Shown: positions 8,572-34,738 of the stretch, piece after piece | Layout of the letters: every line of letters begins with the position of its first letter | Numbering within the stretch: the stretch's first letter is position 1 | Assembly: GCA_018268515.1 (NCBI GenBank) | Contig: JAFDWK010000021.1 | Location: 1-37,042 of the forward strand | Length of the DNA stretch: 37,042 nucleotides | Source of the DNA: Actinomycetota bacterium | GTDB taxonomy: Bacteria > Actinomycetota > Actinomycetes > Actinomycetales > Microbacteriaceae | Direction of reading: 5' to 3' | Notes under the pieces: generated by a model | Database searches by the model: none | What the model was told of the DNA's origin: nothing | What the model saw: the letters and a program-made list of their open reading frames with translations, nothing else | Made by a program: the position numbers and the translations under genes

Positions 8572-8577
8572 GTACGG

Positions 8578-10550: not shown

Positions 10551-10573
10551 CGTCAGATCCGGGTCCGGGTTCT

Positions 10574-10599: not shown

Positions 10600-10660
10600 C
10601 TACGCGCCTCAGAGGCTCGGGGCAGCGCGGGGCGCTGGCTGGAGGGAGGCGTGGGGCGCG

Positions 10661-10680
10661 AAGGGCCCGGTGGGCCCATC
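10661..10680. repeat. GGGCCC-GGT-GGGCCC hairpin downstream of galE
   Basis: Two self-complementary GGGCCC blocks separated by three bases lie within this interval, just beyond the galE stop. They could form a second short transcript-end stem for galE; no U-tract is seen. Confidence 0.35.
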
Positions 10681-10689
10681 CGTGCGGAC

Positions 10690-11739: not shown

Positions 11740-11767
11740 GGGTGCTCCTTGGGTAGATGGTGCTTCG

Positions 11768-11773
11768 ATGCTA
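11768..11773 (-). promoter_or_regulatory. Candidate galE -10 element
   Basis: On the reverse strand TAGCAT (TANNNT) lies 28 bases before the GTG start, leaving room for a short leader with the AAGGAG ribosome-binding site. No clear -35 is seen. Confidence 0.35.
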
Positions 11774-11875
11774 CTTGTTCGCCGTTCCATAGCCCCGTGT
11801 CGCCTCGGGAGACCGCACACCACGCAAGGAACGCCCGCAGCGGAGCGCCTCAGGAGCGCCGTGCCGACCCCCGGA

Positions 11876-11881
11876 TAGAGT
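11876..11881 (+). promoter_or_regulatory. Candidate -10 element of a leaderless transcript (GT4 gene)
   Basis: TAGAGT fits TANNNT and is followed by CGGACC and the ATG at 11888, a six-base gap. No Shine-Dalgarno sequence is present. Confidence 0.55.
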
Positions 11882-11887
11882 CGGACC

Positions 11888-12961: not shown

Positions 12962-12986
12962 GCGCAGAACCACAGGCGCTCTCGCC

Positions 12987-12992
12987 TAGACT
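12987..12992 (+). promoter_or_regulatory. Candidate -10 element for the first ABC-exporter operon
   Basis: TAGACT fits TANNNT, 39 bases before the GTG at 13032, leaving a leader of about 33 nt with the weak purine-rich AGAGAAAG before the start. Confidence 0.4.
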
Positions 12993-13031
12993 GATGACGC
13001 TCCGTCGACGCCCCGATCAGAGAAAGTCTTC

Positions 13032-13937: not shown

Positions 13938-14674
13938 GCACCGCCGCCGCTCTCCGACCGAGCGTCATCATCGACGGGGTCCACAAGAGATTCACCCTCA
14001 ATCACGCGTTCTCCTTCAAGGACACCGTGGTGTCCTGGATCCGGCGTCGTAAGACGACCTCATCCTTCGAAGCGCTCAAGGGGCTGAGCCTGGTCATCAA
14101 CGAGGGGGAGTCCGTCGCGATCCTCGGCCTCAACGGCTCGGGCAAGTCGACGCTGCTCAAACTCATGTCGGGCGTGATGGAACCCGACAAGGGCGAGGTG
14201 CTCACGCGGGGCCGCGTGGCGGGTCTCATCGAGGTCGGCGCGGGCTTCCACCCGGAGCTGTCCGGACGCGAGAACGTGTTCCTGAACGCCGCGATCCTGG
14301 GAATGAAGCGCAAGGAGATCGAAGCGCGCTATGACGAGATCGTGGCGTTCAGCGAGATCGAGGAGTTCATCGATCAAGAGGTCAAGCACTACTCGTCGGG
14401 CATGTTCATGCGGCTGGCATTCTCGGTGGCGATCCATGTCGAAGTCGACATCCTGCTCGTGGACGAGATCCTCTCCGTCGGCGACGCACCCTTCCGGGAG
14501 AAGTGCCGGCTGAAGTTCGAGGAACTCATCGCCGCGGGCAAGACACTGGTCGTGGTCAGCCACGACGCGGAGATGGTGCGCGAACTCTGCACCCGGGGTG
14601 TGGTGCTGTCCCGCGGAACGATGGTGTTCGACGGCGATGTGGAGCAGGCGCTGACCCACCTGGAGCCAGCCTGA
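13934..14674 (+). CDS. ABC-2 type polysaccharide exporter, ATPase subunit (short Wzt-like), first copy
   Basis: The 246-residue ATPase has Walker A GLNGSGKS (65-72), the Wzt/TagH-type signature YSSGM (153-157), Walker B ILLVDE (173-178) and the H-loop His210. The N-terminal KRFTLNHAFSFKDTVVSWIRR insertion is typical of polysaccharide-export ATPases. LIEVGAGFHPELSGRENV is also characteristic of the family. It ends soon after the nucleotide-binding domain, so it lacks the C-terminal carbohydrate-binding domain found in O-antigen Wzt proteins that recognise a capped chain end. It powers the Wzm-like partner encoded immediately upstream, with an overlapping start. Confidence 0.94.
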   Translation: MSTAAALRPSVIIDGVHKRFTLNHAFSFKDTVVSWIRRRKTTSSFEALKGLSLVINEGESVAILGLNGSGKSTLLKLMSGVMEPDKGEVLTRGRVAGLIEVGAGFHPELSGRENVFLNAAILGMKRKEIEARYDEIVAFSEIEEFIDQEVKHYSSGMFMRLAFSVAIHVEVDILLVDEILSVGDAPFREKCRLKFEELIAAGKTLVVVSHDAEMVRELCTRGVVLSRGTMVFDGDVEQALTHLEPA

Positions 14675-14731
14675 GGCCGAGCACGCAGCGCTGGACGCCA
14701 CGGGTCGGGGAGGCCTTCAGCGAGGGGTCGC

Positions 14732-14737
14732 TAAGAT
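14732..14737 (+). promoter_or_regulatory. Candidate -10 element upstream of the large membrane-protein gene
   Basis: TAAGAT fits TANNNT. It would give a leader of about 70 nt before the ATG at 14816. No matching -35 at 16-18 bp is obvious. Confidence 0.35.
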
Positions 14738-14815
14738 CGTCCGGGGTCTGTGCCCCGTTTCTGCGGTGCGACCGTGCCTGCTCCGAGCCGTCCCGAAGAA
14801 AGAGGTAGTTCCCAG

Positions 14816-16738
14816 ATGACGTGGTTGGCCCTCGCCCTCGCCGTCGCCGTGCTGGCACTCGTGATCGTGCTCCCGGGCCTTCTGATCGCCTTCCTGCTGG
14901 GCTTCCGCGGGCTCTGGCTGCCGGGACTCTCGGTCGCCTCCGGAGTGTCCGTGCTCGCGATGGCGGCGACCGCGGCGCCGCTCGTCGGGCTGACCTGGGG
15001 GATCCTCCCCGTCGCCCTCATGACCGCGGTGGTCGCGGTCATCTGCGTCGGACTCCGGTTCCTGCTCTGGCGCGGGGAGAGGGGCGTCCGCGGCCCGCGG
15101 ACGAGCCGGGGAGCGGTGCTCGCCGTCGTCGGCGCCGTCCTGCTGATCCTCGTCCAGCTGCTGCTGATCATCCGCGTCCCGGATGCGATCTCGCAGACCT
15201 TCGACAACATCTTCCATCTCAACGCGATCCGTTTCGCGCTCGACACCGGCAGCGCCTCGCCGCTCACGCTCGGGCAGCTCACCAGCAGCCACTCGGGCGG
15301 GCTGCCGTTCTATCCCTCCGCGTGGCATGCGGCCGGATCCCTCGTGGTGACGCTCACGGGAGTCAGCATCCCCGTCGCCTCGAACGCCGCCACGATCTTC
15401 TTCGCTGCGGTGTGGCCGCTGTCGGCCGTGCTGCTGGTGCGGGCCCTGTTCGGCTCGAGGACCGCGCTCCTCGTCGGGGCGATGGCGGTCAGCGCGGCGC
15501 TCCCGTCGTTCCCGATCCTCCCGCTCGACTACGGCGTGCTCTTCCCGTTCATGATGTCGGTCACCGTGCTCGGCACGGCGCTGGCGCTGCTGCACACCGC
15601 CATCGAGACGACCGGACCCCGGCGCCGGGCGGCGCTCGTCGCGCTCGTCGGCATCGTCCCCGGCATCGTGATCAGTCACCCCGGCGGTTTCGTAGCCCTG
15701 CTCGCGTTCGGCACGGTCATGCTCGGCTGGTCGTTCATCCGGTACCTGCGCAGCGTCGGCTCGACCCGGGCGCGCCTCTGGGCCGCTGCCGGCGCGGCCG
15801 TCTATCTTCTCGTGGTCGCGGCCGCGTGGTACGTGCTGCGTCCGCCGGCCGCGGCGCGCACCTGGGTGCCCGATGAGACCGCCGGCCAGGCGATCGGCGA
15901 GGTGCTGACGGTGTCCGGCTGGCACGGCCCGATGAACTTCGTGGTCGCGGTGTTCCTCATCATCGGGCTGGTCGTCGCGTTCCGTCGTCGCACGCCGGCG
16001 CACATCACGGCGCTGTTGCTGTTCGGGCTCGCCGGGATCCTCTACGTCGCGGTCTCCGGGCTGCCCTATCCCTGGCTGCGCGACATGCTCACGGGGGCCT
16101 GGTACAACAACTCGCCGCGGCTGGCCGCGCTGCTGCCGATCGGCTGGATCCCGCTGGCCGCGCTCGGCGTGGACGCCGCGTGGACGCGCCTGGCCGGCTG
16201 GTCCGCGGCGCGCACGCCGCGGACCCTCGTCCGAACGCTCCTGGCCGTGGCCGCCGCCGTCGTGCTCGTGGTCGTGCCGCAGGTGACGGTCATGCGACAG
16301 GCGGTCGCGAGCGCGAACTTCGCCTTCACTCGCGGCGCCGATGCCCCGCTGATCTCCTCGGACGAGTGGAAGCTGTTGTCCCGGCTGCCCTCCGAGGTGC
16401 CGAAGGACGCCGTGATCATCGGCAACCCGTGGACGGGCACGGCGCTGGCCTATGCGCTCGCGGGCAGGACGGTCGTGCTCCCGCACACCCTGACCGACAT
16501 CACCCCGGAGATGACCGCGATCCTCGACGGCCTGAACAAGGCAGCGCCGGGCAGCAAGGCGTGTCGCGCGGTGGCAGACCTGAAGGTCACCTATGTTCTC
16601 GACTTCGGGGGGCGCGAGGTCAACAACGCGAACGTCGTGTACACCGGTCTGAAGAACCTGTCCCGCTCGCCGAATGTGACCCTCGTCGACTCCGAGGGCG
16701 ACGCGCGCCTGTACCGCGTCACCGGATGCAACGGCTGA
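14816..16738 (+). CDS. Large polytopic membrane protein (DUF6541-like; possible GT-C transferase)
   Basis: The 640-residue protein has a dozen or more hydrophobic segments, beginning at the first residues (TWLALALAVAVLALVIVLPGLLIAFLLG in pieces) and continuing to about residue 490. It ends in an extracytoplasmic domain of about 150 residues (SSDEWKLLSRLPSEVPKDAVIIGNPWTGTALAYALAG, then VTYVLDFGGREVNNANV). The TM1-TM2 loop includes TFDNIFHLNAIRFALDTG, and FYPSAWHAAG follows. Polytopic proteins with a late periplasmic domain in glycan clusters often belong to GT-C glycosyltransferases that use polyprenyl-phosphate sugars. That role is inference, since no defining DD or DE motif was identified with certainty. 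The ATG at 14816 has AGAGG about ten bases upstream. Confidence 0.8.
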   Translation: MTWLALALAVAVLALVIVLPGLLIAFLLGFRGLWLPGLSVASGVSVLAMAATAAPLVGLTWGILPVALMTAVVAVICVGLRFLLWRGERGVRGPRTSRGAVLAVVGAVLLILVQLLLIIRVPDAISQTFDNIFHLNAIRFALDTGSASPLTLGQLTSSHSGGLPFYPSAWHAAGSLVVTLTGVSIPVASNAATIFFAAVWPLSAVLLVRALFGSRTALLVGAMAVSAALPSFPILPLDYGVLFPFMMSVTVLGTALALLHTAIETTGPRRRAALVALVGIVPGIVISHPGGFVALLAFGTVMLGWSFIRYLRSVGSTRARLWAAAGAAVYLLVVAAAWYVLRPPAAARTWVPDETAGQAIGEVLTVSGWHGPMNFVVAVFLIIGLVVAFRRRTPAHITALLLFGLAGILYVAVSGLPYPWLRDMLTGAWYNNSPRLAALLPIGWIPLAALGVDAAWTRLAGWSAARTPRTLVRTLLAVAAAVVLVVVPQVTVMRQAVASANFAFTRGADAPLISSDEWKLLSRLPSEVPKDAVIIGNPWTGTALAYALAGRTVVLPHTLTDITPEMTAILDGLNKAAPGSKACRAVADLKVTYVLDFGGREVNNANVVYTGLKNLSRSPNVTLVDSEGDARLYRVTGCNG

Positions 16739-16757
16739 ACAGTCAGGAGGAGAAGCC

Positions 16758-17648
16758 ATGACGCTGGAGATCTTCTGCCCGTTCTGGGGCGACCCGGAGC
16801 TGCTCTTCGAGACGGTCGAGTCCGTGCGCGCGCAGCGCAACCCCGACTGGCGGCTCATCGTGATCGACGACTGCTATCCCGACGACACCGTCGCCGGGCG
16901 GTTCGCGGCGATCGAGGACGACCGCATCACGTACGTGCGCAACGAGAAGAACCTCGGCATCACGGAGAACTACCGAGAGGCGATCCGACGCGCGACGACG
17001 CCCTACATCGCGATCCTCGGATGCGACGACCTGCTGCACCCCGGATACGTCGATGCCGTCCTGCGCACGATCGCGGAGGTCCCGGCCGCCGATGTGATCC
17101 AGCCGGGCGTCGTCGTGATCGACGAGCACGGCACTGTGATCTCGCCGCTCGTCGACCGCGTCAAGCAGGGCCTGCTCGCGCCGAGCACGCACGGCGCGAC
17201 CGCCGTGCTGACCGGGCAGGACATGGCGACGAGCCTGATCCGCGGCGACTGGCTGTACTGGCCTTCTCTGACGTTCCGCACCGAGACGCTCAAGCGCATC
17301 GACTTCCGCGAGGGGCTGCCCATCATCCAGGACCTCGCCCTGCTCATGGACATCGCCTTCGACGGGGGGACGCTCGCCTACACGCACGAGGTGGTCTTCT
17401 CCTACCGGCGGCACGGATCCAGTGCCTCGCAGAAGACCCTGATGGACGGACGGCGCTTCCGCGACGAGCGCGCGTACTACCGCACGGCGCGCGGTCTCGC
17501 CGCGGCGAAGGGGTGGAAGCGCACGGCCCGGGTCGCGCGCGTGAGGATCATGTCGCGCCTGCACGCCGTGACCGAGCTGCCCGGCATCATCCGGCACGGC
17601 AACGGCGCTGCGCTAAAATCGACGCTGGCACACATCTTCGCGGGCTGA
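16758..17648 (+). CDS. Family 2 glycosyltransferase (GT-A fold)
   Basis: The 296-residue protein begins LEIFCPFWGDPELLFETVESV. The nucleotide-binding segment is WRLIVIDDCYPDD (about 31-43), and NLGITENYREAIRRATTPYIAILGCDDLLHPGYV carries the DxD-equivalent CDD that binds the metal and sugar nucleotide. A later DWLYWPSLTFRTETLKRIDF and the acceptor-side LPIIQDLALLMDIAF (aspartate as likely base) complete the GT2 pattern. No membrane segment is evident, so it probably works at the cytoplasmic face. GGAGGAG lies just before the ATG at 16758, 19 bp after the large membrane-protein gene. Sugar specificity is not readable. Confidence 0.92.
   Translation: MTLEIFCPFWGDPELLFETVESVRAQRNPDWRLIVIDDCYPDDTVAGRFAAIEDDRITYVRNEKNLGITENYREAIRRATTPYIAILGCDDLLHPGYVDAVLRTIAEVPAADVIQPGVVVIDEHGTVISPLVDRVKQGLLAPSTHGATAVLTGQDMATSLIRGDWLYWPSLTFRTETLKRIDFREGLPIIQDLALLMDIAFDGGTLAYTHEVVFSYRRHGSSASQKTLMDGRRFRDERAYYRTARGLAAAKGWKRTARVARVRIMSRLHAVTELPGIIRHGNGAALKSTLAHIFAG
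17614..17619 (+). promoter_or_regulatory. Candidate internal -10 element ahead of the epimerase gene
   Basis: TAAAAT is a strong -10-like hexamer inside the last codons of the GT2 gene, in otherwise GC-rich DNA, 85 bp before the epimerase ATG. It may allow the epimerase-acyltransferase pair to be transcribed separately. Confidence 0.35.
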
Positions 17649-17704
17649 GGCCTTCGCCGACGCGAACACCGCCGAGCACCGTCTGACCGCCGAGGAGAGC
17701 ACCG

Positions 17705-18841
17705 ATGTCGGAACACGTCTTGATCACCGGAGGGGCCGGCTTCATCGGAACCCGCCTGGCCGCGAGGTTCGTGGCCGACGGCCACACCGTCACGGTGCTG
17801 GACTCGCTCATCCCTCAGGTGCACGGGGACGACCCGGCCACGACGTCCCCTCTGCTGCGCTCGCTCGACGGTGTGGCCGAGGTGGTGACCGGCACGGTGA
17901 CCTCCAAGGACGATCTGCGGCGGGCGCTCGCCGGCGCAACGATCGTGATCCACCTCGCCGCCGAGACCGGCACTGGGCAGTCGATGTACGAGATCGACCG
18001 CTACGTCGACGCGAACGTCGGCGGCACCGCGAAGCTGCTGGACATCCTCACGAATGAGGAGAACGCGGTGCGCCGCCTGGTCATCGCGTCCTCACGCTCG
18101 ATCTATGGCGAGGGCGCCTACGAGACCGAGGACGGGCGTCGCGTCTACCCCGGACACCGCGCGGATGCGGACATGGCCGCCGGCGACTTCGACGTGCACG
18201 CGCGGGGTGAGGGCCCCCTGCAGCTGGTCCCCACGGACGAGACCGCCCTCGTGCATCCGTCTTCGGTGTACGGCATCACGAAGCAGATGCAGGAGTCGCT
18301 CATCATGACGGTGGCGCCCACGGTCGGCGTCGAGCCGGTCTCCGTGCGCTACCAGAACGTGTACGGGCCGGGGCAGTCGCTGAAGAACCCCTACACCGGG
18401 ATCCTCTCGATCTTCTCGACGCTGATCCGCCAGGGCAAGGACATCAACATCTTCGAGGACGGCGAGGAGAGCCGGGACTTCGTCTACATCGACGACGTCG
18501 TCGAGGCGACCTTCCTGGCCGCGACGGTGCCCGCCGCCGCCGGGGGGATCTTCAACGTCGGATCCGGGGTGGCGACCTCGGTGAACGAGGTCGTCGCGGC
18601 GCTCTTCGCGGCCTACGGCACGGAGGTGCCGACGCACATCTCCGGCAACTACCGTCTCGGCGACATCCGCCACAACGTGGCCGATACCACCGCGCTGCGC
18701 GAGGTGCTCGGCTTCACGCCGGCCGTCGCCTTCGCCGACGGGGTGAAGCGGTTCGCGGAGTGGGTGCTCACCGAGCCGATCGAGGCCGACGGCTATGAGC
18801 GCTCGCTCAAGGAGATGGCGGAGCGGAAGCTTCTGAAGTGA
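17705..18841 (+). CDS. NAD-dependent epimerase/dehydratase (extended SDR) acting on a nucleotide sugar
   Basis: The 378-residue extended short-chain dehydrogenase has [16 protein letters not shown] (NAD loop, about 4-19), IHLAAETGTGQSMYEIDRYVDANV and VIASSRSIYGEG (catalytic Ser region). HPSSVYGITKQMQE carries the Tyr-x-x-x-Lys, and RYQNVYGPGQSLKNPYTGI and SRDFVYIDDVVEAT follow. This is the pattern of nucleotide-sugar epimerases and dehydratases. Between the Ser and Tyr motifs it has an insertion of about 45 residues with no cysteines. Related enzymes, from recall, often carry CPxxG knuckles there. It is not a second GalE or RmlB, so it probably makes an additional sugar for the glycan. GGAGAG lies before the ATG, and the stop overlaps the acyltransferase region. 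Confidence 0.9.
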   Translation: MSEHVLITGGAGFIGTRLAARFVADGHTVTVLDSLIPQVHGDDPATTSPLLRSLDGVAEVVTGTVTSKDDLRRALAGATIVIHLAAETGTGQSMYEIDRYVDANVGGTAKLLDILTNEENAVRRLVIASSRSIYGEGAYETEDGRRVYPGHRADADMAAGDFDVHARGEGPLQLVPTDETALVHPSSVYGITKQMQESLIMTVAPTVGVEPVSVRYQNVYGPGQSLKNPYTGILSIFSTLIRQGKDINIFEDGEESRDFVYIDDVVEATFLAATVPAAAGGIFNVGSGVATSVNEVVAALFAAYGTEVPTHISGNYRLGDIRHNVADTTALREVLGFTPAVAFADGVKRFAEWVLTEPIEADGYERSLKEMAERKLLK

Positions 18842-18882
18842 GCCGGGGCGTCGCTTCGCGGGGCGCCTGGCTGACGGAGGCG

Positions 18883-20028
18883 ATGGAGTACCCGTATCGT
18901 CGCAACAGCCTGAACCTGTTCCGCCTCGTCCTGGCGTTCCTCGTGCTCGTCGCGCACGGCTACTACATCGTCGGCCGCCACGACAGCCCGGGATTCAACG
19001 GCGAGAACCTCGGCGGATGGGCCGTCATCGGGTTCTTCGTCATCAGCGGCTTCCTGATCACGCGGTCGCGCTTCCGCACGGATCCGGGGACGTTCCTGGT
19101 GCACCGGATCGGCAGGATCATGCCGGCGTTCATCGTCTGCCTGCTGCTCACTGCCGCGGTGTTCGCGCCGGTCGCCCTCTGGGTCACGCAGGGGTCGCTG
19201 AGCGGCTACCTGCACGACGGGCCGACGCCGCTGCAGTACGTCTGGAGCAACTTCTTCCTGCACATCGACACCTACCAGATCGGTCGGTCGCTCTCGACCG
19301 TTCCCTATCCGAACGCCTGGAACGGCTCGCTGTGGACCCTCTACTTCGAGTTCCTCTGCTACCTGGCGGTGTGGCTGCTGGGGGGCCTGGCGATCTATCG
19401 CCGCTCGGTCACGGCGGTCGCGGTCGTCTGGGCGGCATCGGTGGCCGTGCGCGGCGCCAACCTGATCGGTCTCACCGGTGGTCTGGACGGAGACTTCGAG
19501 CTGCTCGCGCGCCTGGCGCCCTATTTCCTCGGCGGCTCCCTCATCTACCTCATCATCGATCGGTGGGGACTGCGGCGGGTGCTGGGCATCGCCAGCATTC
19601 CGATCGCGGCACTGCTCATGGTGTTCGTGCCAGGACTGGGCGGGCCGCTTTCCGCGCCCTTCCTCGGGTACGCCCTGCTGTTCCTGTCCACGGTCGTCCC
19701 GCAGCCGGCGTGGGTCGCGCGCAACGACGTCTCCTACGGGTTCTACATCTACGCCTGGCCCGTCCAGCAGCTCGTCGTGGTGTTCGGCGGTGCGGGGCTG
19801 AACATCGCGCTGTACACGGTGATCTGCGCGATGATCACCTTCGGGTTCGCGGCGGCGAGCTGGTTCGGCGTCGAGCGGCACTTCATGCGCCTCGCCAGGA
19901 ACGCGACGTCGCCGAGGCCGGTGGTGGCGTCAGCGGTCGATCGCGCGGACGCGGCGGCGGGCGAGTTGCCACAGGCGCAGCAGCAGCAGCCGGGAGCGCA
20001 GCACGGCGCCGATCCCGCGCGGGCGTGA
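18883..20028 (+). CDS. Acyltransferase family 3 (OafA/YrhL-like) membrane protein
   Basis: The 381-residue integral membrane O-acyltransferase lacks a C-terminal SGNH domain. NLFRLVLAFLVLVAHGYYI holds the conserved His of the family (H25). GWAVIGFFVISGFLITRSRFR and FLVHRIGRIMPAFIVCLLL with the Arg motif follow, and about ten membrane segments are present. YGFYIYAWPVQQLVV is the typical late motif. It should move an acetyl or other acyl group onto a sugar of the glycan. The ATG at 18883 has GGAGG two bases upstream. An in-frame GTG at 18838 overlaps the epimerase stop (GTGA) and would add 15 residues. Its last 33 codons overlap the oppositely oriented glycosyltransferase gene. Confidence 0.9.
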   Translation: MEYPYRRNSLNLFRLVLAFLVLVAHGYYIVGRHDSPGFNGENLGGWAVIGFFVISGFLITRSRFRTDPGTFLVHRIGRIMPAFIVCLLLTAAVFAPVALWVTQGSLSGYLHDGPTPLQYVWSNFFLHIDTYQIGRSLSTVPYPNAWNGSLWTLYFEFLCYLAVWLLGGLAIYRRSVTAVAVVWAASVAVRGANLIGLTGGLDGDFELLARLAPYFLGGSLIYLIIDRWGLRRVLGIASIPIAALLMVFVPGLGGPLSAPFLGYALLFLSTVVPQPAWVARNDVSYGFYIYAWPVQQLVVVFGGAGLNIALYTVICAMITFGFAAASWFGVERHFMRLARNATSPRPVVASAVDRADAAAGELPQAQQQQPGAQHGADPARA

Positions 20029-20676
20029 GGTCGAGGCGTTGTCCTCGTGCACGCGGCGGTAGAGCGTCGGCTGCTCGAGGTGCGTCATTCGACGCGCGGC
20101 GTTCGCGACGGTCGCGATCCAGAGATCGTGCGACTCCGTGAGGCCCTCCGGGAACGGGAGCACCAGGTCGAGTGAATCGCGGCGGATCGCCATCGCACAG
20201 CCGAAGTAGGGGATGTCCCCGGCGAGGATCCCCAGCTCGTTGCGCAGCGGGCGCGTGCCGTCGGCCGCGCGGAGCAGCCACGGCCGACCGGTGAGTGGCG
20301 AGCGCAGCGCCTCCTCGGATCCGAGCAGCAGCAGGTTCGAGGCCGCGACGCCCCTGGCCGTGGCCGCTTCGACGAGCGCATCCCGCCTGCCCGGGATCCA
20401 CACGTCGTCCTGATCGCTCAGGAGCAGCACGTCACCGGTGGCGACGCCGAGCGCACGCTCGAAGGATCGCACGTAGCCGCGGTTCCGATCGTTGCGGACG
20501 AGCCGGATCCGGGGGTCGTCGTAGGTCTCGACGACCGCCACGGTGTCGTCCGGGCTCGCGTCGTCGACGATCACGATCTCGTCGTCGGGGCGGAGCTCGG
20601 ACAGGATGGAGTCCAACTGCTCCCGCAGGTAGGCGGAGCCGTTGTAGGTCGCCATGCACACGCTGGCTCGAGTCAT
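19930..20676 (-). CDS. Family 2 glycosyltransferase (DQDDxW type)
   Basis: The 248-residue GT-A enzyme begins SVCMATYNGSAYLREQLDSIL. EIVIVDDASPDDTVAVV holds the nucleotide-binding Asp residues, and NRGYVRSFERAL and LLLSDQDDVWIPGR (about 84-97) hold the metal-binding DQDD. PYFGCAMAIRRDSL and LTESHDLWIATVAN carry the likely catalytic-base region. The DQDDxW subgroup is common in rhamnan and capsule clusters and includes many rhamnosyl- and galactosyltransferases; specificity here is unknown. The ATG at 20676 follows the flippase stop by one base, with GGAGG inside the end of that gene, so it is the last gene of the minus-strand operon. Its 3' end overlaps the acyltransferase gene by 99 bp. Confidence 0.92.
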   Translation of the reverse strand: MTRASVCMATYNGSAYLREQLDSILSELRPDDEIVIVDDASPDDTVAVVETYDDPRIRLVRNDRNRGYVRSFERALGVATGDVLLLSDQDDVWIPGRRDALVEAATARGVAASNLLLLGSEEALRSPLTGRPWLLRAADGTRPLRNELGILAGDIPYFGCAMAIRRDSLDLVLPFPEGLTESHDLWIATVANAARRMTHLEQPTLYRRVHEDNASTSRPRGIGAVLRSRLLLLRLWQLARRRVRAIDR

Positions 20677-20677
20677 C

Positions 20678-21955
20678 TCAGACCTCCTCGGTCATCGGCC
20701 GCGGATTGGTGTGCGGGCGCGCCCTGAGCCGCAGCACCAGCGCCGCACACGCGGCGAGGTTTACCGTCTCGCCGAGCGCGAAGCCGGCCGCGACGCCCGC
20801 ACCCCCCCAGAACAGACCGAGCACGATCATCGCGATGAAGGCCGTGGCGGCACCGGCGACGCTCGCCAGCAGCACCTGACGGTCGCGGCGAGCCGGGACG
20901 AGGATGTTGCGGATCAGCGGAGTCGCCAGGGTGAGCCCGACGAAGGCGATCGCGTAGAACTGGAAGACCACGGGATCGCCGGCCTTGTCGGCGCCGAACA
21001 GGAGACCGCTCACGAACGGGCCGAGGATCGCGAGCACGACCCAGCCGATCGCGGCTACGGCCGCCATGATCGCGAAGGCGATCCGGTTGCGGCGCTGCCG
21101 GATGGCGGCCGTGGATTCGAGCACCCACCCCTGCAGGGCGTTGCCGACGGCAATGATCGCCATCAGTCCATAGCGATAGATCCGATCGCTCGAGGAGAAC
21201 GAGACGGTGGCGGCCGTGCCGATCACGATGCCCGCGATGGGCACCGGAGCGTTGGTCGACAGGCTCGTCATGGTCTCCACGCCCCAGGCCGCGCGCATGT
21301 CGGCGACGTCGTCCCGCAGTTGCTGCCCGCCCGGCCAGGCCGGCAGGATCCGGCGGAACACGCGCAGGTGGAACACGATGAGCCCTGCGACGAACGAGAG
21401 CGTCAGCAACGCGCCGTACCAGAACACGCTGCCGGTCGAGAGCACGACCGCGATGGCGAGCGCCGTGGCGATCGCCCGCGGCACCACTTCGTACCAGAAC
21501 ACCAGACCGGGTGCGGCGACGGCGACCGCATACCAGCTCAGGGTCATCGCGTTGAGCGCCGTGGCCACCGCGAAGACCGCCGCGGTCGCGGCCACCTGCG
21601 GGGCGATGGCCGCGGCGACCACACCGCCGATCATGCATACCACGACGACGGCGATGCCGCGGATGTAGAAGGATCGTGCGTACAACTGCTCGCGCTCGGC
21701 GACCGACTCCGCGGCGATCACCATGGGGGTGCCGAGCAGGTTCCACCCCACGAGCGCGACCGCGGCGGCGAACGCGCCCACACCCATCCCCACACCGAGG
21801 GCCGCCCAGTCGTCGCCCGTCGATGCGCGCGACATGATCGGCAGCGCGATGAGGGGGAGCACTGATGCGAGGAAGGGCAGCATCGAGAACCCGAGCAGGC
21901 GCTGCACGAGCCCGGGCGAGCCGGTGCGCTCCGGGGCGGGCGAACCCGCGGTCAC
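20678..21955 (-). CDS. Wzx/MATE-like oligosaccharide flippase
   Basis: The 425-residue integral membrane protein has about 12 hydrophobic segments and the general layout of the MVF/polysaccharide-transporter families. FSMLPFLASVLPLIALPIMSR opens the first helix with its Pro-rich motif. MTSLSTNAPVPIAGIVIGTAATVSFSSSDRIYRYGLMAI (in pieces) matches the start of the second half, where Wzx proteins read similarly. LFGADKAGDPVVFQFYAIAFVGLTLATPLIRNILVPARR is also typical. It probably flips a polyprenyl-diphosphate-linked repeat unit or sugar to the outer leaflet. The start is GTG at 21955, overlapping the upstream gene's stop by 4 nt (GTGA). It is an export route separate from the two ABC exporters nearby. 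Confidence 0.85.
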   Translation of the reverse strand: MTAGSPAPERTGSPGLVQRLLGFSMLPFLASVLPLIALPIMSRASTGDDWAALGVGMGVGAFAAAVALVGWNLLGTPMVIAAESVAEREQLYARSFYIRGIAVVVVCMIGGVVAAAIAPQVAATAAVFAVATALNAMTLSWYAVAVAAPGLVFWYEVVPRAIATALAIAVVLSTGSVFWYGALLTLSFVAGLIVFHLRVFRRILPAWPGGQQLRDDVADMRAAWGVETMTSLSTNAPVPIAGIVIGTAATVSFSSSDRIYRYGLMAIIAVGNALQGWVLESTAAIRQRRNRIAFAIMAAVAAIGWVVLAILGPFVSGLLFGADKAGDPVVFQFYAIAFVGLTLATPLIRNILVPARRDRQVLLASVAGAATAFIAMIVLGLFWGGAGVAAGFALGETVNLAACAALVLRLRARPHTNPRPMTEEV

Positions 21956-22923
21956 GGGTACTCCGTCCCGGGAGGGGCAGGATCCGCGACGCGCGGTGCC
22001 GCCCAGACGATACCGGCGGCCAGATCCATGAGCTCCTGGGGCATTCGTCCCATCCGCCCGCTGCGTCCGGCCCTGCGACCTTCGCGGAGCAGCCGCCGCA
22101 GGGACCTCCGCGGCTTCGCGAGCTGCAGCACGTTCACGAAATGCAGGTGATCCAGGATCGTGTCGCGCAGGATTCTGGCGCGGAACGTGCCGGCGTATTC
22201 GCGGTTCAGCACGATCCTGTTGCGCCGACGGTAGTAGTAGCGGAACGGGGTGCTCACGGTGACCTCGTCGGGGAGCAGTCCCGGGATGCCGAACCGACGT
22301 CCGAACAGGCGCCGCTCCAGCGCCGTGCCCAGACGGTGCCCCATCTTCAGGCCGGGGGCGGCGATGATCGGTCGTCCCGCCCGGGTGAGGCGGAACTCGT
22401 ACTCCGTGTCGACCAGGTCGATGAAGAAGTCCTCGCGGAAGCCGCCCAGCGACTCCCACACCTCGCGGGGGATGAGCATGCCGGACTGGATCACGTTCGC
22501 CGTTCCGTGCACCCCGGGGGCGATCTCCTCCCGCGCCTGCCGGACGTCGGCGAAGTATTCCGGCACCACGGCCCCGGGGGAGAGCGCCACAGAGGCCTGC
22601 GCGTGGGTCTCGTGCAGGCGCCGCACCGCATCCTCCGGTAGCGACGAGTCCTGATCCAGCGTCACGACGAACTCCGCGCCCCGTGCGAACGCCTCGGCGA
22701 CGCCCCGGTTCAGGGCCGCCCCGATACCGGCGTTGACATCCTGTCGCAGGACGTGTGCGCCCAGCTCGTGCAGTGCGCTCAGCGGGCCTGCGGCATCGGG
22801 ACCCGATCCGTCATCGACGACGACGAGCCCTGAGAGCTGCGCGAATGCGGCCCCCGCAGTGCGGACGACATCGTCGCCGGGGCGGAAACAGCTCATCACG
22901 CCCCAGATCACGGCCCCGGTCAT
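21952..22923 (-). CDS. Family 2 glycosyltransferase, rhamnosyltransferase-like
   Basis: The 323-residue protein starts VIWGVMSCFRPGDDVVRTA. LSGLVVVDDGSGPD (donor-binding Asp) and VNAGIGAALNRGVAEAFARGAEFVVTLDQDSSLPEDAV follow. The NAGIGAALNxG plus TLDQDS combination is the signature of the RfbF/GlfT1-like rhamnosyl- and galactofuranosyltransferase group. VIQSGMLIPREVWESLGGFREDFFIDLVDTEYEFRLTRAG carries the FIDxxDxE catalytic region. The C-terminal helices are basic (RRSLRRLLREGRRAGRSG) and probably touch the membrane. Given rhamnose and galactofuranose synthesis in the same locus, either donor is plausible. ATGA and GTGA overlaps tie it to the DUF2304 and flippase genes. Confidence 0.92.
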   Translation of the reverse strand: MTGAVIWGVMSCFRPGDDVVRTAGAAFAQLSGLVVVDDGSGPDAAGPLSALHELGAHVLRQDVNAGIGAALNRGVAEAFARGAEFVVTLDQDSSLPEDAVRRLHETHAQASVALSPGAVVPEYFADVRQAREEIAPGVHGTANVIQSGMLIPREVWESLGGFREDFFIDLVDTEYEFRLTRAGRPIIAAPGLKMGHRLGTALERRLFGRRFGIPGLLPDEVTVSTPFRYYYRRRNRIVLNREYAGTFRARILRDTILDHLHFVNVLQLAKPRRSLRRLLREGRRAGRSGRMGRMPQELMDLAAGIVWAAPRVADPAPPGTEYP

Positions 22924-23315
22924 CGATCCCCGGAGTCTCCGGCGTCCGGGCGCAGGCATTCTTCCAGCGCGCTCAGCCGGTTCCGCAGACCCTCGAGCTC
23001 GGCACGGGAGATGGCGGCTTCCTCGGCGGTGCGGCGGATCTCGTCCTCGGCCTGGGAGAGCTCCCAGGACAGGTGCAGGGCGACGCCGAGGAGCAGCACG
23101 ATCGCAACCGCGAACAGCATGTTGGCGGGCACTTGCACGCCGAACAGGGCGGTCGCCCAGAGCAGCAGGTTCGGGAAGACGCCCAGCACGAGAAGCGCCA
23201 GCGCGATGAGGATCCACATCACCGCGTACTTCTCGCGCATCCGGCGGGTGAGCAGCATCCACCCGACGATCGCGAGGATCACGACGGCGACGGTGATTCC
23301 GACGATGACGATCAC
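22920..23315 (-). CDS. DUF2304 small membrane protein
   Basis: The 131-residue protein has three membrane segments: about 1-20, then after LLTRRMREKYAVMW the stretch 30-50, and 62-85. A C-terminal amphipathic, likely coiled-coil tail follows (ELSQAEDEIRRTAEEAAISRAELEGLRNRLSALEE in pieces, about 88-122). The R-x-x-REKYAxxW motif after the first helix is the DUF2304 hallmark. DUF2304 genes typically lie directly after a polyprenyl-phosphate-sugar-synthase-like GT2, exactly as here, and probably form a membrane partner for it; no activity is known. The GTG at 23315 overlaps that GT2's stop by 4 nt and has GAGG upstream. Confidence 0.9.
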   Translation of the reverse strand: MIVIVGITVAVVILAIVGWMLLTRRMREKYAVMWILIALALLVLGVFPNLLLWATALFGVQVPANMLFAVAIVLLLGVALHLSWELSQAEDEIRRTAEEAAISRAELEGLRNRLSALEECLRPDAGDSGDR

Positions 23316-24055
23316 GCCGTGGCCTCCTCGGGCTCGGGGAAGGTCCGGCGCGGGCGTCGCAACATCGACAGCCCCAGGGCGAAGAGGGAGCGCAGCAGGT
23401 AGATCGACGATCCGATGGGGCCCTGGCTCGGGGTGCCGTGCGCGCGAGGGCGCATGGCCACCGGCACCTGGGTGACGGCGAGCCCCGCATGACAGGCGGC
23501 GACGAGCGAGTCGATCGTGTCGCCGAGGTATTCGGCGGGGTAGTAGCGCACGTACTGCTCGATCGCGCGCGGACCGGCGGCGCGGAAGCCGCTGGTCACA
23601 TCGGTGAGGCGCGTCTTGGCGACCCGGGACACCGTGCTCGCGAGGAATGTCATCGCCCACTGCCGGGGTCCGCGCACCTTGTAGTCGCCCACCTCTGCGA
23701 AGCGCGCGCCGATCGAGATGTCGGCCCGTTCGAGGCCCCCGAGCACCTTCGCGATATCGGCAGGGTTGTGCTGGCCGTCCGCATCGACCTGGATGGCGCG
23801 GGAATACCCATTGCGCCGTGCATAGGTGAACCCCGTGCGCATGGCTCCGCCGACGCCGAGGTTGAACGGCAGCGAGAGCACGGTCGCGCCCGCTTCCCGT
23901 GCGACATCCGCCGTGCCGTCCTCGGATCCGTCGTCGATGACGACCACGTCGTAGGCGCTGTCCGCGGCCTTGATCTCGTGGACCGTCGCGGCGACGTTGC
24001 GCTCCTCGTTCCACGCGGGGACGATGACGAGTACACGGTCCTGCGCAGAGATCAT
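23312..24055 (-). CDS. Polyprenyl-phosphate sugar synthase-like family 2 glycosyltransferase (DPM1/GtrB-like)
   Basis: The 247-residue enzyme has VLVIVPAWNEERNVAATVHEI (about 8-28), YDVVVIDDGSEDGTADVA with the DDGS donor motif, and LGVGGAMRTGFTYA. YSRAIQVDADGQHNPADI carries the catalytic DADGQH metal motif that marks the dolichol-phosphate-mannose-synthase group. DVTSGFRAAGPRAI and EYLGDTIDSLVAACHAG follow, and the tail has a short hydrophobic stretch. It should charge undecaprenyl-phosphate with a hexose for use outside the membrane. It heads a minus-strand operon GT2-DUF2304-GT2-flippase-GT2 with overlapping starts. On its strand TAGGAT (24065-24070) lies nine bases before the ATG, so the transcript has almost no leader. 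Confidence 0.93.
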   Translation of the reverse strand: MISAQDRVLVIVPAWNEERNVAATVHEIKAADSAYDVVVIDDGSEDGTADVAREAGATVLSLPFNLGVGGAMRTGFTYARRNGYSRAIQVDADGQHNPADIAKVLGGLERADISIGARFAEVGDYKVRGPRQWAMTFLASTVSRVAKTRLTDVTSGFRAAGPRAIEQYVRYYPAEYLGDTIDSLVAACHAGLAVTQVPVAMRPRAHGTPSQGPIGSSIYLLRSLFALGLSMLRRPRRTFPEPEEATA

Positions 24056-24081: not shown

Positions 24082-26325
24082 TTACGGGATGTCCGCGCCG
24101 ATCGTGTACGCGGAGCGGAAGCCCGGGTCGAGCGTGAGGATCGACGGCAGCTGGCCGCCGCCCAGCGCGACGAGCGTGGCGTAGGAGAGCACGTGCCGCA
24201 GCGCGCCGTCCTGATACCGGTAGACCTCGCCCGCGCCCGCGAACTGGACGAAGTCGACGGACTCGGTCAGCAGCGGCGCGCCGATCGTGAAGTCGGCCTG
24301 GCTGCTCGCCGGGAGAGTCGCGATCGGCGGCACGGCCCCGTTGCCCAGGGCGAGGAGCGTGCTGAAGGCCCGCACCTGGTGCAGGGAGCCCCCGGTGAGG
24401 CGGTACACCTCGGGCTTGCCCCGGAACGACACGAAGGCTCCGTCGGGGAGGTACGGGGCGCCGATCCCGACCGCCTGAAGCGCCGCGTCGGACCAGGAGA
24501 CGATCTGCAGCGGCCGCGAGCCGTTGAGCGCCACCAGATCGGCGTAGCGGAGCACGTGCCGCGCGGATCCGCGATCCAGCGTGTAGACGGCCCCGTCGGA
24601 CCCCTGCACGAGGAGCGGCGCCGAGACGGCCGGCGAGCCCGCCGTCGCGGGGAAGGCGTCGCACTCGCCCTGCTGGAGCGGGGTGGGCGTGACGCCCCCG
24701 GTGTCGGCGCCGTTGACGGAGCGCAGCGAGGCGCCGTCGAGCACGCGCACGGTGCCGCCGCACGAGACGAACGGGGTCAGCCCCGTCGCGGTGCGCGTGC
24801 TGCGGGACAGCGCGGCATCGGTGACGACCGAGTACCGCCGCGCCCCGAAGTCCGCGGCGAGCCCGAAGCTCGGGATGTGGACGATGGTCCCGGTCGAGGT
24901 GGTGAGGTACACGTCGTTCTCGGACTGGGCCCGTACGAGCGAGTTCGGCGCGAACAGCGTGGCGCCCTCGGGCAGGCGATCGGACGAGGCCGGCTCCATC
25001 GTCGCGATGTAGGCGGGGCGGCCGCCGAACGCGTACGCGAGCGCCAGCGAATCCCAGACGTGGCGCTTCCCGCTGTCGGTCATCCGGTACACGTCTCCGC
25101 TGCCGTACGGCGTGAAGATATCGGACACCTCAGCCCCCGTGGTGAACGCGTCGGCGAGGGAGGCCGGGATGTTCACGAAGGAGCCGAACGCGTAGCCATA
25201 GGACGCGACCGCCGCCGCGGTGGGCAGCCGGTGCTTCGTCCCGTCGGTATCGAGCAGGTAGAGCGTTCCGGTGCGCGGGTCGTGCACGTAGCGCGTGACG
25301 TCCGGTCCAGTCTTGATCCCGTCGAGCAAGGAGGCGCTCACCCAGCGGAAGGATCCGAGTCGCGACGTCAGCGCGGCGAGGTCGAGCGAGCTGACCACGT
25401 GGTACTTGGTGCCGCTCATCACCAGGTAGACCTGGTTGCCGCCGTAGGCGACGGCCAGCGAGGCGTCGCTGCCGCCGGAGACCTGGGTGCTGCCGAACCA
25501 GTCGGTGAAGAAGTTGAAGAAGTTGCGGTTGCCGTACGCCGAGCAGCTGTTGCCGGTTCCGTAGCCGGCGGCGAGCGCGGCCGCGTTCGGCTGGTAGGGG
25601 GTGTAGTAGTACAGGGCGGAGGTCGCCGCGTTCTCGATGTAGACCGGGGACGACCCGCAGGCCTCGTTCGGGTTGTAGAGGATGTTCCAGGTGCGCCCGG
25701 GGGCGTACCAGGTGAAGTAGACGCCCTCGAGGTAGATCTTCATCTGCCGCGCGCCGCCGTACACCTGGGCGAAGAAGCCGGCGAAGCTGGGATCGCAGGG
25801 CGCGGTGTCGGGACAGGCCTGGCCCATCGCCGCAGCGTACTGGGCGCCGACCGGCCAGGTGTCCAGCACGAGGCCCTGCTCCTTCTGGAGCATCACGACC
25901 AGCACCTGGGGGTTGATCCCGCAGGACTGGGCGACCTTGGCGATGATCGTCGCGGCGGATTCGCCGCTGGAACCCGAGTAGCCGTTGCAGTAGCGGTCGG
26001 CGCTCTTGTTCGGAGTGGACTGCTGGAAGTCTTTGAGGCACACGTAGCCCGATCGGCAGGCGGACACCTTGCTCTGGAGGAACGTCTGGACCTGAGACGC
26101 GCTCATCGTCGAGGAGTTCGTGAACACCGCGTCGGAGATGATGTTGCCGGCGCGGAACTGCGAGAGGTCAGCGGCGGGCCGGACTCTGGCGTCGACGGCG
26201 GCCGGCGCGGCGGGGCGGGCAGAGGCCGATGCCGCGGGGGGCGTCAGGGCGAGCACGCTCGTCGCCACCACCGCCGCCGCGAGAAGGGCCAGGCCGCGTG
26301 TGAGACGGGTTCCAATCGGGCGCAC
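24082..26325 (-). CDS. Secreted protein with a Cys-rich KEQGL domain and about eight 55-residue repeats
   Basis: The 747-residue protein has a Sec signal peptide (RRGLALLAAAVVATSVLAL-like core, likely cut after ASA near 33-35). Its N-terminal domain (about 55-280) has eight cysteines (90, 96, 113, 135, 171, 177, 223, 261), GESAATIIAKVAQSCGINPQ and VLVVMLQKEQGLV (Glu149), AMGQACPDTAPCDPSF, GFFAQVYGGARQ and SAYGNRNFFNFFTDWFGST. INPQVLxxxLQKEQGL recalls lysozyme-like muramidases, with Glu149 as a possible acid, but this is inference. The rest is about eight repeats of pattern VYxxxxGxxHHVxS-xxLAxLG-(x)n-L-(x)n-TGA, suggesting a beta-propeller or beta-solenoid. There is no membrane anchor or sortase motif. 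GTG at 26325 lies six bases after a candidate -10 and is divergent from rfbA. Function unknown; a wall-glycan binding or remodelling role is a guess from context. Confidence 0.85.
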   Translation of the reverse strand: MRPIGTRLTRGLALLAAAVVATSVLALTPPAASASARPAAPAAVDARVRPAADLSQFRAGNIISDAVFTNSSTMSASQVQTFLQSKVSACRSGYVCLKDFQQSTPNKSADRYCNGYSGSSGESAATIIAKVAQSCGINPQVLVVMLQKEQGLVLDTWPVGAQYAAAMGQACPDTAPCDPSFAGFFAQVYGGARQMKIYLEGVYFTWYAPGRTWNILYNPNEACGSSPVYIENAATSALYYYTPYQPNAAALAAGYGTGNSCSAYGNRNFFNFFTDWFGSTQVSGGSDASLAVAYGGNQVYLVMSGTKYHVVSSLDLAALTSRLGSFRWVSASLLDGIKTGPDVTRYVHDPRTGTLYLLDTDGTKHRLPTAAAVASYGYAFGSFVNIPASLADAFTTGAEVSDIFTPYGSGDVYRMTDSGKRHVWDSLALAYAFGGRPAYIATMEPASSDRLPEGATLFAPNSLVRAQSENDVYLTTSTGTIVHIPSFGLAADFGARRYSVVTDAALSRSTRTATGLTPFVSCGGTVRVLDGASLRSVNGADTGGVTPTPLQQGECDAFPATAGSPAVSAPLLVQGSDGAVYTLDRGSARHVLRYADLVALNGSRPLQIVSWSDAALQAVGIGAPYLPDGAFVSFRGKPEVYRLTGGSLHQVRAFSTLLALGNGAVPPIATLPASSQADFTIGAPLLTESVDFVQFAGAGEVYRYQDGALRHVLSYATLVALGGGQLPSILTLDPGFRSAYTIGADIP

Positions 26326-26434: not shown

Positions 26435-28301
<1,867 letters not shown>

Positions 28302-28302
<1 letters not shown>

Positions 28303-29879: not shown

Positions 29880-33154
<3,275 letters not shown>

Positions 33155-33191
33155 GGCGCGGAGCCGACGCGGAGCGCCGCGGGGCCGTCGA

Positions 33192-33197
33192 TAGGAT
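33192..33197 (+). promoter_or_regulatory. Candidate -10 element of a leaderless transcript (second ABC exporter)
   Basis: TAGGAT fits TANNNT and is followed by CGCAGA and the GTG start at 33204, a six-base gap. No Shine-Dalgarno sequence is present, which favours leaderless initiation. Confidence 0.6.
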
Positions 33198-33203
33198 CGC
33201 AGA

Positions 33204-33998
33204 GTGACAGTGACCGACGTGCGCGGGGGAGGACTCTCCCGGCGCTACTTCCACTCGCTGTGGCTGCTGTCGGCGCGCGATCTACGCGTGCGCTACGCGA
33301 CGAGCGTGCTCGGCTACCTTTGGTCGGTGCTGGATCCGCTCGTGATGAGTGCGATCTACTGGTTCGTGTTCACACAGGTCTTCCATCGCGGGCAGGTGGG
33401 GGAGCAGCCGTACATCGTGTTCCTCATCACGGCGCTCCTGCCGTGGGTCTGGTTCAACACGTCGGTGGGGGAGTTCACCCGCGCGTTCAAGAAGGACGCC
33501 CGGCTCATCCGCTCGACGGCCATCCCGCGGTCGATCTGGGTGATCCGCGTCATCCTCACCAAGGGGATGGAGTTCGTCTTCGCGATCCCCGTGCTGGTCC
33601 TGTTCGCGGTGTTCGCCGGGGCGAAGCCGAACTGGTTGCTGCTGCTGTTCCCCGTGGCGATGGTCTGGCAGGCGGTGCTGCTGATCGGCCTTGGTCTGCT
33701 GATCGCGCCCCTCTGCGTGCTCTGGACCGACCTGGAGCGCACGACCGCTCTGATCCTGCGCGCGCTGTTCTACGTCTCACCGATCATCTACAGCTTCAAG
33801 GACCTGCCGCACCAGCTGCACCTCGTCGGCGCGCTGAACCCGCTGTCCGGCATCTTCACGCTGTACCGCGTCGGTCTGTTCCCCGGGCAGTGGCAGCCGG
33901 AGCCGGTCATCATCGGCGCCGTCGTGACGGTGCTGTTCCTCGGTCTCGGGCTGTTCACGTTCCGCTCGCTCGAACGCGACGTGCTGAAGGAGCTGTGA
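33204..33998 (+). CDS. ABC-2 type polysaccharide exporter, membrane subunit (Wzm-like), second copy
   Basis: The 264-residue membrane subunit has SLWLLSARDLRVRYATSVLGYLWSVLDPLVMSAIYWFVF in pieces (amphipathic start plus the RYxxSxLGxLWxxLxPL motif of Wzm/TagG). IRSTAIPRSIWVIRVILTKGMEF is the cytoplasmic loop, followed by RALFYVSPIIYSF and ALNPLSGIFTLYRVGLF. Six membrane segments are visible. It differs clearly in sequence from the first copy at 13032. In mycobacteria a Wzm/Wzt pair exports the lipid-linked galactan, and the position directly after glf suggests that role here; this is inference from context. Its stop overlaps the ATPase ATG by one base. Confidence 0.94.
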   Translation: MTVTDVRGGGLSRRYFHSLWLLSARDLRVRYATSVLGYLWSVLDPLVMSAIYWFVFTQVFHRGQVGEQPYIVFLITALLPWVWFNTSVGEFTRAFKKDARLIRSTAIPRSIWVIRVILTKGMEFVFAIPVLVLFAVFAGAKPNWLLLLFPVAMVWQAVLLIGLGLLIAPLCVLWTDLERTTALILRALFYVSPIIYSFKDLPHQLHLVGALNPLSGIFTLYRVGLFPGQWQPEPVIIGAVVTVLFLGLGLFTFRSLERDVLKEL

Positions 33999-34738
33999 TG
34001 ACCGAGCAGCATGCGGCGATCGAGGTCGACGGGCTCGGAGTGCGGTTCCGGTTGGGGCGGCGCGGACGGCGCAGCTTCAAGGACCTCTTCGCCGGCAAGA
34101 AGCGGCGCAACCGCCCCGGCGAGTTCTGGGCGCTGCGGGACGTGTCGTTCCGGGTGCGCCAGGGAGAGGCGATCGGCGTGGTCGGCCGCAACGGCCAGGG
34201 CAAATCGACGTTGCTGAAGCTCGTCGCCGGGGTGCTGCTCGCCGACGAGGGCCACGTGCGCGTGCACGGCGGTGTGGCTCCCCTGATCGAGCTCACCGGC
34301 GGCTTCGTCGGCGATCTGACCGTGCGGGAGAACGTGAAGCTCACTGCAGGCCTGCACGGCATGGGGCGGGCGGAGATCGCGGCGCGCTATGACGGGATCA
34401 TCGAGTTCGCCGAGCTGGAGAAGTTTCAGGAGACGCCCTACAAACACCTGTCCAACGGGATGAAGGTGCGCCTGGCGTTCTCCGTGGTGTCGCAGCTCGA
34501 GGAGCCGATCCTGCTGGTGGACGAGGTGCTCGCCGTCGGCGACAAGGCCTTCCGGGACAAGTGCTATCAGCGCATCGACGAGCTGCTCGCCGATGGCCGT
34601 ACCTTGTTCTTCGTCTCGCACAACGAGAAGGACCTGCGCCGCTTCTGCACCCGCGGGCTCTACCTGAACAAGGGCGGGCTCGTTCTGGATGCCTCGATCG
34701 AGGATGTGCTCGATCGTTACGACGCCGACAACAGCTGA
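33998..34738 (+). CDS. ABC-2 type polysaccharide exporter, ATPase subunit (short Wzt-like), second copy
   Basis: This 246-residue ATPase has exactly the same length as the first copy. It has Walker A GRNGQGKS (63-70), signature LSNGM (151-155), Walker B ILLVDE (171-176) and H-loop His208. GGVAPLIELTGGFVGDLTVRENV is the family-specific segment. It also lacks a C-terminal carbohydrate-binding domain. The paralogues diverge through the N-terminal region and around the Q-loop, so they probably serve different membrane partners and different glycans. ATP binding and hydrolysis at the inner face should drive export through the protein encoded just upstream (33204-33998). Confidence 0.95.
   Translation: MTEQHAAIEVDGLGVRFRLGRRGRRSFKDLFAGKKRRNRPGEFWALRDVSFRVRQGEAIGVVGRNGQGKSTLLKLVAGVLLADEGHVRVHGGVAPLIELTGGFVGDLTVRENVKLTAGLHGMGRAEIAARYDGIIEFAELEKFQETPYKHLSNGMKVRLAFSVVSQLEEPILLVDEVLAVGDKAFRDKCYQRIDELLADGRTLFFVSHNEKDLRRFCTRGLYLNKGGLVLDASIEDVLDRYDADNS

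Follow-up and report, generated by a model that had tools for sequence, protein, structure and literature searches.

The gene and its glycan locus

The gene described here lies on the minus strand of the window, a 37,042-nucleotide stretch of DNA from a member of the Microbacteriaceae, where an open reading frame runs from a GTG start at 26325 to a stop at 24082 and encodes 747 amino acids. The GC content of its third codon positions is 0.94 and the ORF is therefore regarded as a real gene. The 19-residue segments of highest hydrophobicity begin at residues 8-12, resembling a signal peptide, and a signal peptide-like N-terminus was assigned to residues about 1-34 (26224..26325, minus strand), with a presumed cleavage site. 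An earlier note on this DNA had claimed an exported protein of 747 residues, which the ORF and its signal-like start bear out.

Two regions follow this N-terminus. The first (the N-domain, residues 53-284; 25474..26169, minus strand) is an unnamed domain, predicted to be lysozyme-like from alignments, a structural model, Foldseek and hhalign. It holds exactly eight cysteines (residues 90, 96, 113, 135, 171, 177, 223 and 261), the motif INPQVLVVMLQKEQGLV beginning at residue 137 and the motif YGNRNFFNFFTDWFG beginning at residue 264. Residue 149, the proposed catalytic residue, is a glutamate (E149; codon at 25879..25881, minus strand); all of these features are found where the note had placed them. 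The motif TxxLYxYTP spans T235-P243 (25597..25623, minus strand). The second region is made of repeats and has two additional cysteines, 522 and 555.

Domain matches on both sides of the gene agree with the claim that it sits within a glycan locus and is divergent from rfbA. Its divergent neighbour is an rfbA-like NTP_transferase gene (26435-27304, plus strand), which together with an rfbB-like dehydratase/epimerase gene (GDP_Man_Dehyd/Epimerase) covers 26435..28302, and genes for an SGNH acyltransferase, UDP-galactopyranose mutase (glf), an ABC2 permease and an ABC ATPase lie further along the same strand (29880..34738). The other flank (9093..24055, mixed strands) has GT2 enzymes, epimerases, an acyltransferase and a glycosyltransferase among its genes. 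It includes a LytR-CpsA-Psr protein (9093-10550, plus strand), a second ABC2 permease (13032-13937, plus strand), a full-length match (E 1e-158) to DUF6541, which is a family name without a function (14750-16738, plus strand), and a GT2 gene (23312-24055, minus strand). In other bacteria, LytR-CpsA-Psr proteins attach polymers to murein.

Spread and conservation of the N-domain

Searches of Pfam, NCBIfam and PHROGs gave nothing significant for the N-domain (53-284), as anticipated by the earlier note, and among the papers listed in searches of the open-licence PMC literature none names it in its title or abstract opening. We know of no activity for any member of the family.

A single copy of the gene is present in its own genome. 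A draw of 296 genomes from the same class gave matches in 17 at a threshold of E 0.001, of which 14 belong to the Microbacteriaceae and one is a true N-domain relative from outside that family (G255, L012). Two candidate relatives were rejected, one being EccB (L018) and the other a short match at the N-terminus (L019). Within the family, a 24-row domain profile (A1) with a cut-off of 1e-10 found the N-domain in 185 of 199 genomes and 78 of 85 genera, including several genomes of only 1.1-1.4 Mb; some of the 14 genomes without a match are incomplete. Presence in 185/199 genomes is the pattern of a core gene, not an accessory one. The domain also occurs in other actinobacterial classes: either of two profiles matched the same 14 of 396 genomes drawn from the phylum, and eight of these, with sizes of 1.8-2.1 Mb, share only the phylum with the window. 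Furthermore, ten non-redundant members from IMG/VR contigs were used in the analysis, and further searches returned the same IMG/VR members again or none. Annotated phage records had no tblastn match to the full protein, the L044 domain or the L053 domain, and annotated plasmid records had none to the first two of these queries.

An alignment of 42 sequences was built from the 24 of A1, the ten IMG/VR members and eight from other actinobacterial groups. Nine residues are invariant in all 42 (E149, G168, D173, G183, Q187, T235, Y241, T242 and P243) and two are nearly so, Q150 in 40 and Y239 in 41. The cysteines lie outside this invariant core and most are missing from distant members. E149 is domain residue 97 and is placed by the predicted model at the end of a helix formed by domain residues 87-98.

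Fold prediction and profile comparison

The model of the window N-domain, built with 13 sequences, has a mean pLDDT of 76 and a pTM of 0.82. When it was compared with the PDB using Foldseek, rank 1 went to an unrelated viral capping enzyme at a probability of 0.06, several rows being this enzyme, while the highest probability, 0.60, belonged to the autolysins 4pi7 and 6fxo; many autolysins, goose-type lysozymes, lytic transglycosylases and a GH23-type chitinase were among the other rows. A clearer picture came from L063, a phage-type member whose domain was modelled with AlphaFold (pLDDT 81, pTM 0.79) and for which ranks 1-23 of the 50 PDB matches listed are lysozyme-fold murein glycosidases or g-type lysozymes by title (rank 22 is titled as a g-type lysozyme plus its inhibitor) and unrelated rows are mixed in from rank 24 on. 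LytB was matched at a probability of 0.97-0.98 (E 0.07-0.11). In BFVD the same model had as rank 1 a protein named endo-beta-N-acetylglucosaminidase (probability 1.00, E 0.023), followed by lower rows with SLT and GEWL-like names and unnamed rows between them. For GH73 folds the best E-values were 0.074 (PDB) and 0.023 (BFVD), at probabilities of up to 0.98 and 1.00. No match in the three Foldseek searches reached E 0.001 and query TM-scores did not exceed 0.46. The E-values are weak, and the case for the fold is made by the agreement of two models and two libraries: the lysozyme-fold neighbours expected from the earlier note were found, at 0.97-0.98 with L063 and 0.60 with the window model, but none of them at E 0.001.

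The PDB was also searched with profiles. With profile A2, goose-type lysozyme led the ranking at E 0.3, followed by MltC at 0.7, both on the glutamate helix and with glutamate falling on glutamate. With A3, MltC (E 0.062) ranked below two ABC sugar-/substrate-binding proteins at 7e-4, which were judged to be chance products of a thin profile, being split stretches of about 5 + 16 bits. The full protein and profile A1 gave chance matches only against the PDB, and Pfam matches to DcuC (5 of the 24 A1 members, E 0.018 at best and below the cut-off) were likewise set aside as chance.

The N-domain alignments were also compared by hhalign with 29 SLT domains and 12 GH73 domains, as single comparisons and not database searches, and with input alignments (A1, A3, A4, A6 and A10) that overlap in membership. 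Against SLT, the diverse alignments gave E-values of 5.2e-5 (A3, probability 67), 1.6e-3 (A4, 16), 8.8e-4 (A6, 23) and 1.3e-3 (A10, 19), and the 24 rows of A1 gave 0.033 (1.5); against GH73 the values ranged from 6e-4 to 0.049. Controls stayed at 0.33-0.77 for EccB and 0.18-0.78 for reversed alignments (0.39-0.78 against SLT). The glutamate of the N-domain falls on the SLT glutamate in the A6 alignment. At E 1 the Pfam SLT model detected none of the 24 A1 members, none of the eight A2 members and one of six A3 members (0.19), and the curated Pfam score was not reached by the N-domain for either SLT (PF01464) or GH73 (PF01832). The likeness to muramidases and lytic transglycosylases read from the sequence by the earlier note, E149 being the probable catalytic position, is supported by the A2 search of the PDB, hhalign, Foldseek and residue invariance, less strongly so by the A3 search of the PDB and by the window model, and the muramidase assignment can be called well supported, albeit not proven.

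Repeats with a possible link to EccB

The C-terminal region was divided manually into eight units. The score of each unit, obtained with an HMM built from the other units, was compared with those of 1000 shuffles of itself, the fifth unit being kept out of all repeat HMMs. Seven of the eight units, about 56 residues long, outscore all 1000 shuffles. These are repeat 1 (residues 289-344; 25294..25461), repeat 2 (345-401; 25123..25293), repeat 3 (402-458; 24952..25122), repeat 4 (462-517; 24775..24942), repeat 6 (571-626; 24448..24615), repeat 7 (630-686; 24268..24438) and repeat 8 (691-746; 24088..24255), all on the minus strand. The divergent fifth unit (about 519-568; 24622..24771, minus strand), which contains the two additional cysteines, did not rise above its shuffles, 57 of 1000 being as good. 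Of the roughly eight degenerate 55-residue repeats previously described, seven are accordingly well supported but the fifth is doubtful.

A relationship to EccB is suggested by three lines of evidence. Pfam and NCBIfam matches to EccB at residues 349-401, within repeat 2, are sub-threshold (PF05108 at 18.1 bits against a cut-off of 27; TIGR03919 at 15.9 against 154), and the search of the class genomes drew in EccB (L018) through residues 351-402 at E 3.7e-4. In addition, an HMM built from seven repeats of the window protein was applied to 15 EccB loci, with a single ORF per locus picked by its score to this same HMM; by length, 12 of the 15 are the EccB frame and those of L107, L111 and L119 are not. 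Near the EccB C-terminus it scored 19.5 bits in L109 and 24.6 bits in L108, and near the R1 position 12.4 (L109), 8.1 (L108), 9.5 (L110) and 7.4 (L114) bits, where the best shuffle reached 9.2 bits (3000 shuffles, 1980 scored). The repeats are thus clear in two of the 12 EccB proteins and marginal in two more, with nothing convincing in the eight others, which include the EccB of the window's own genome. Searched against the PDB, the repeat profile reported a lectin-like chain (E 0.031), short stretches of designed Pizza proteins (E of at least 0.12) and no EccB structure, so that the EccB link is carried by Pfam/NCBIfam, the class search and the repeat HMM.

The R domains of EccB1 consist of four-stranded sheets with two helices and resemble PlyCB, the protein that fastens a phage lysin to the wall, and an anchoring role is suggested for the R domains and for EccB (PMC4769845). 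Given the R-domain matches in some EccB proteins and the likeness of these domains to PlyCB, the beta-propeller put forward in the earlier note is unsupported and, judged from these matches, unlikely.

Domain partners of the relatives

The N-domain is the only part common to the whole set of relatives. Partners were sought with Pfam in nine of these proteins, three of which have none over the cut-off. In two proteins from viral contigs the N-domain is followed by NLPC_P60 (L052) or Peptidase_M15_4 (L063), and in a member from another actinobacterial group (L044) it is preceded by a CC_PcsB coiled coil (27.9 bits against a cut-off of 27). Elsewhere it is followed by LGFP (L003) or CW_binding_2 (L020), or, in L002, SLH comes after the same repeats as in the window protein. 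No Pfam partner was found in L015, Big_13 was below the cut-off in L040, and L008 has FG-GAP-like repeats after the N-domain, as judged by eye. Six copies have little behind the N-domain, namely L021-L024 and L029, with open frames of 313-429 amino acids, and L025, in which it sits inside a longer open frame; a lipobox-like start was seen by eye or by pattern in five of the six, L023 being the one without.

CC_PcsB, NlpC/P60 and M15 are usual partners of murein hydrolases, and as far as sequence goes the set of partners (NlpC/P60, M15, PcsB, LGFP, CW_binding_2 and SLH) would fit such an enzyme. A PcsB-type coiled coil is usually followed by a catalytic domain, and in one actinobacterial family with small genomes three proteins (L044, L046 and L047; Pfam for L044) carry the N-domain after such a coil. 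On one IMG/VR contig (L053, 5351-5938), the ORF directly after a single-domain member matches SLT below the threshold (E 0.0065), and two lysozyme-like genes may stand in tandem there.

Association with glycan loci

Twenty-two loci of relatives (L002, L003 and L064-L083) were compared with 20 hand-picked control stretches from the same genomes, using 20 window proteins as tblastn queries at 1e-10; a PurK-like protein and an O-methyltransferase were among the queries and no locus was counted on those, and the L025 locus was left out. At least two glycan-gene matches were present in 16 of the 17 multi-domain loci (L002, L003 and L064-L077), and the remaining one, a CW_binding_2 paralogue (L078), had no match to the glycan genes of the window. 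Four of the five single-domain loci had no match and the fifth (L083) had one weak ABC ATPase match (31%). Among the controls, 2/20 were matched, one by an ABC ATPase at 25% and one by two acyltransferase matches. The co-occurrence with glycan loci expected from the earlier note consequently holds for 16/17 multi-domain loci, but not for most single-domain loci, L078 or viral-contig members, and a tie between the domain family as a whole and glycan loci is not supported.

Several other features recur around the relatives. A LytR-CpsA-Psr gene lies nearby in 10 of the 22 loci and a PurK-like gene in eight, the spans concerned being 6825-10550 in the window and those at L064-L068, L070, L073, L074, L076 and L077; these neighbours may point to one conserved place in the chromosome at which glycan loci vary. 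DUF6541 recurs in eight of the 22. Some relatives have a repeated GTCACA-like string at their start codon (L004-L008 and L010; L067, L068 and L072), with the exact form GTCACA-N3-GTCACA at L007, L008 and L012 and no such box at the window gene. The exact form occurs three times in 40 stretches (1.58 Mb, both strands), each time at an N-domain gene, half of the stretches having been chosen for carrying that gene. The string could be a leaderless promoter or an MtrA-type box.

A proposed murein cutter for glycan export

The signal-like start, the family with its invariant residues and domain partners, the locus association and a fold likeness of weak E-value are computed properties of the gene and its relatives. 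The enzymatic activity, the substrate, the wall binding and the role in export are what we infer: the protein would be an unnamed lysozyme-like glycosidase, a wall-tethered murein cutter serving the glycan export locus, a reading to which we assign a probability of roughly 0.6. Its parts differ in strength, in that a lysozyme-like fold of the N-domain is very probable, a live enzyme is quite probable and murein as the substrate is probable. In this mechanism the N-domain (53-284), a predicted glycosidase, would cleave the glycan chains of the peptidoglycan, whether as a muramidase, a glucosaminidase or a lytic transglycosylase. E149 at its helix end would serve as the acid, D173, Q187, T235 and the YxYTP tyrosines would sit near the cleft, and disulphides presumed from the eight cysteines would stabilise the domain outside the cell. 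The EccB/PlyCB-type repeats would hold the predicted enzyme on the wall. The ABC2/ABC exporter, rml-like, glf and LytR-CpsA-Psr neighbours suggest that murein would be opened or trimmed at those places where the locus polymer leaves the cell and is attached.

Such a fold could instead belong to a glycosidase that acts on the locus polymer, trimming or releasing its chains, and not on murein, as the rml, glf, ABC exporter and GT genes near 16/17 multi-domain loci and the chitinases in the fold list of the window model would allow; however, the same invariant residues are retained in single-domain copies, with four of five loci lacking glycan matches and the fifth having a weak one, as well as in proteins from viral contigs that carry an NlpC/P60 or M15 domain next to the N-domain, and we consider such a substrate unlikely. 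It is also improbable that a dead lysozyme fold acts as a non-enzymatic wall binder or scaffold, anchoring the export machine in the manner proposed for EccB. The repeats do match R domains of some EccB proteins, for which anchoring is suggested (PMC4769845), but E149 and eight further residues, which one would expect to change in a dead fold, are invariant in 42/42, and the domain is fused to other catalytic domains in viral contigs. A lysin directed at other bacteria, or an endolysin domain domesticated from phage, placed in the locus as variable surface-locus content, would explain the endolysin-like architecture of viral-contig relatives but is very improbable given the core pattern of 185/199 family genomes, several of them of 1.1-1.4 Mb.

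With murein cutting for glycan export preferred, a broader proposal can be made tentatively, and we hold it to be somewhat less likely to be right than wrong. The N-domain would define a new family of glycoside hydrolases within the lysozyme superfamily (QxE, GxxxxD, GFxxQ, TxxLYxYTP), a core murein enzyme of the Microbacteriaceae shared with phage endolysins, and its multi-domain form would be a dedicated wall-opening factor of the glycan export locus with a wall-binding module swapped between species. Type B peptidoglycan is known as a trait of the Microbacteriaceae. For Microbacterium it is noted in the literature (PMC11319209). If the proposal is true, almost all members of a large family from the environment and from plants have a wall enzyme without a name in the libraries searched, phage lysins of the same kind have been overlooked, and modules of EccB-type, LGFP, CW_binding_2 and SLH are exchanged behind one catalytic domain. 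Murein cutting would furthermore be connected, in a way open to testing, with the export and attachment of glycan, and the occurrence of EccB-type repeats in a setting other than type VII secretion would favour wall binding by EccB domains.

Comparison with known systems

The window protein shares features with several named systems. Its repeats may be akin to the R1/R4 domains of EccB (PF05108), which resemble PlyCB, as suggested by the repeat HMM matches in some EccB proteins, but it lacks the EccB core and has up to eight tandem units behind an enzyme-like domain. Wall proteins with LGFP or CW_binding_2 modules are comparable in that these modules stand behind the same N-domain in relatives, whereas EccB-type repeats occupy that position in the window protein.

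Hallmark motifs of GH23 are ES, GLMQ and AYNAG. As in GH23/SLT, goose-type lysozyme and MltC, a predicted helix of the N-domain ends in an invariant glutamate after an INPxVI-like stretch, profile matches put glutamate on glutamate, and these proteins are among its fold neighbours; unlike GH23/SLT, it is without ES (Q150 in 40/42), GLMQ and AYNAG and has GxxxxD, GFxxQ and TxxLYxYTP. The GH73 glucosaminidases LytB, AtlE and FlgJ gave the best Foldseek probabilities, but the profile match is weak (hhalign E 6e-4 to 0.049) and there is no match to Pfam PF01832. A precedent for a lysozyme-like enzyme that is an orphan by sequence is the Enc34 endolysin/PHA02564, likened here by description: it is a murein enzyme tied to GH73/GH23 by a glutamate, a tyrosine, an aromatic residue and its fold, and its core helices are permuted with the glutamate helix last (PMC8943055), whereas in the N-domain the glutamate comes first, as in GH23 and GH73. 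By the features tested, the N-domain is predicted to lie outside both GH23 and GH73; it has no name in Pfam, NCBIfam or PHROGs as searched and would constitute an unnamed branch of the known lysozyme-like superfamily.
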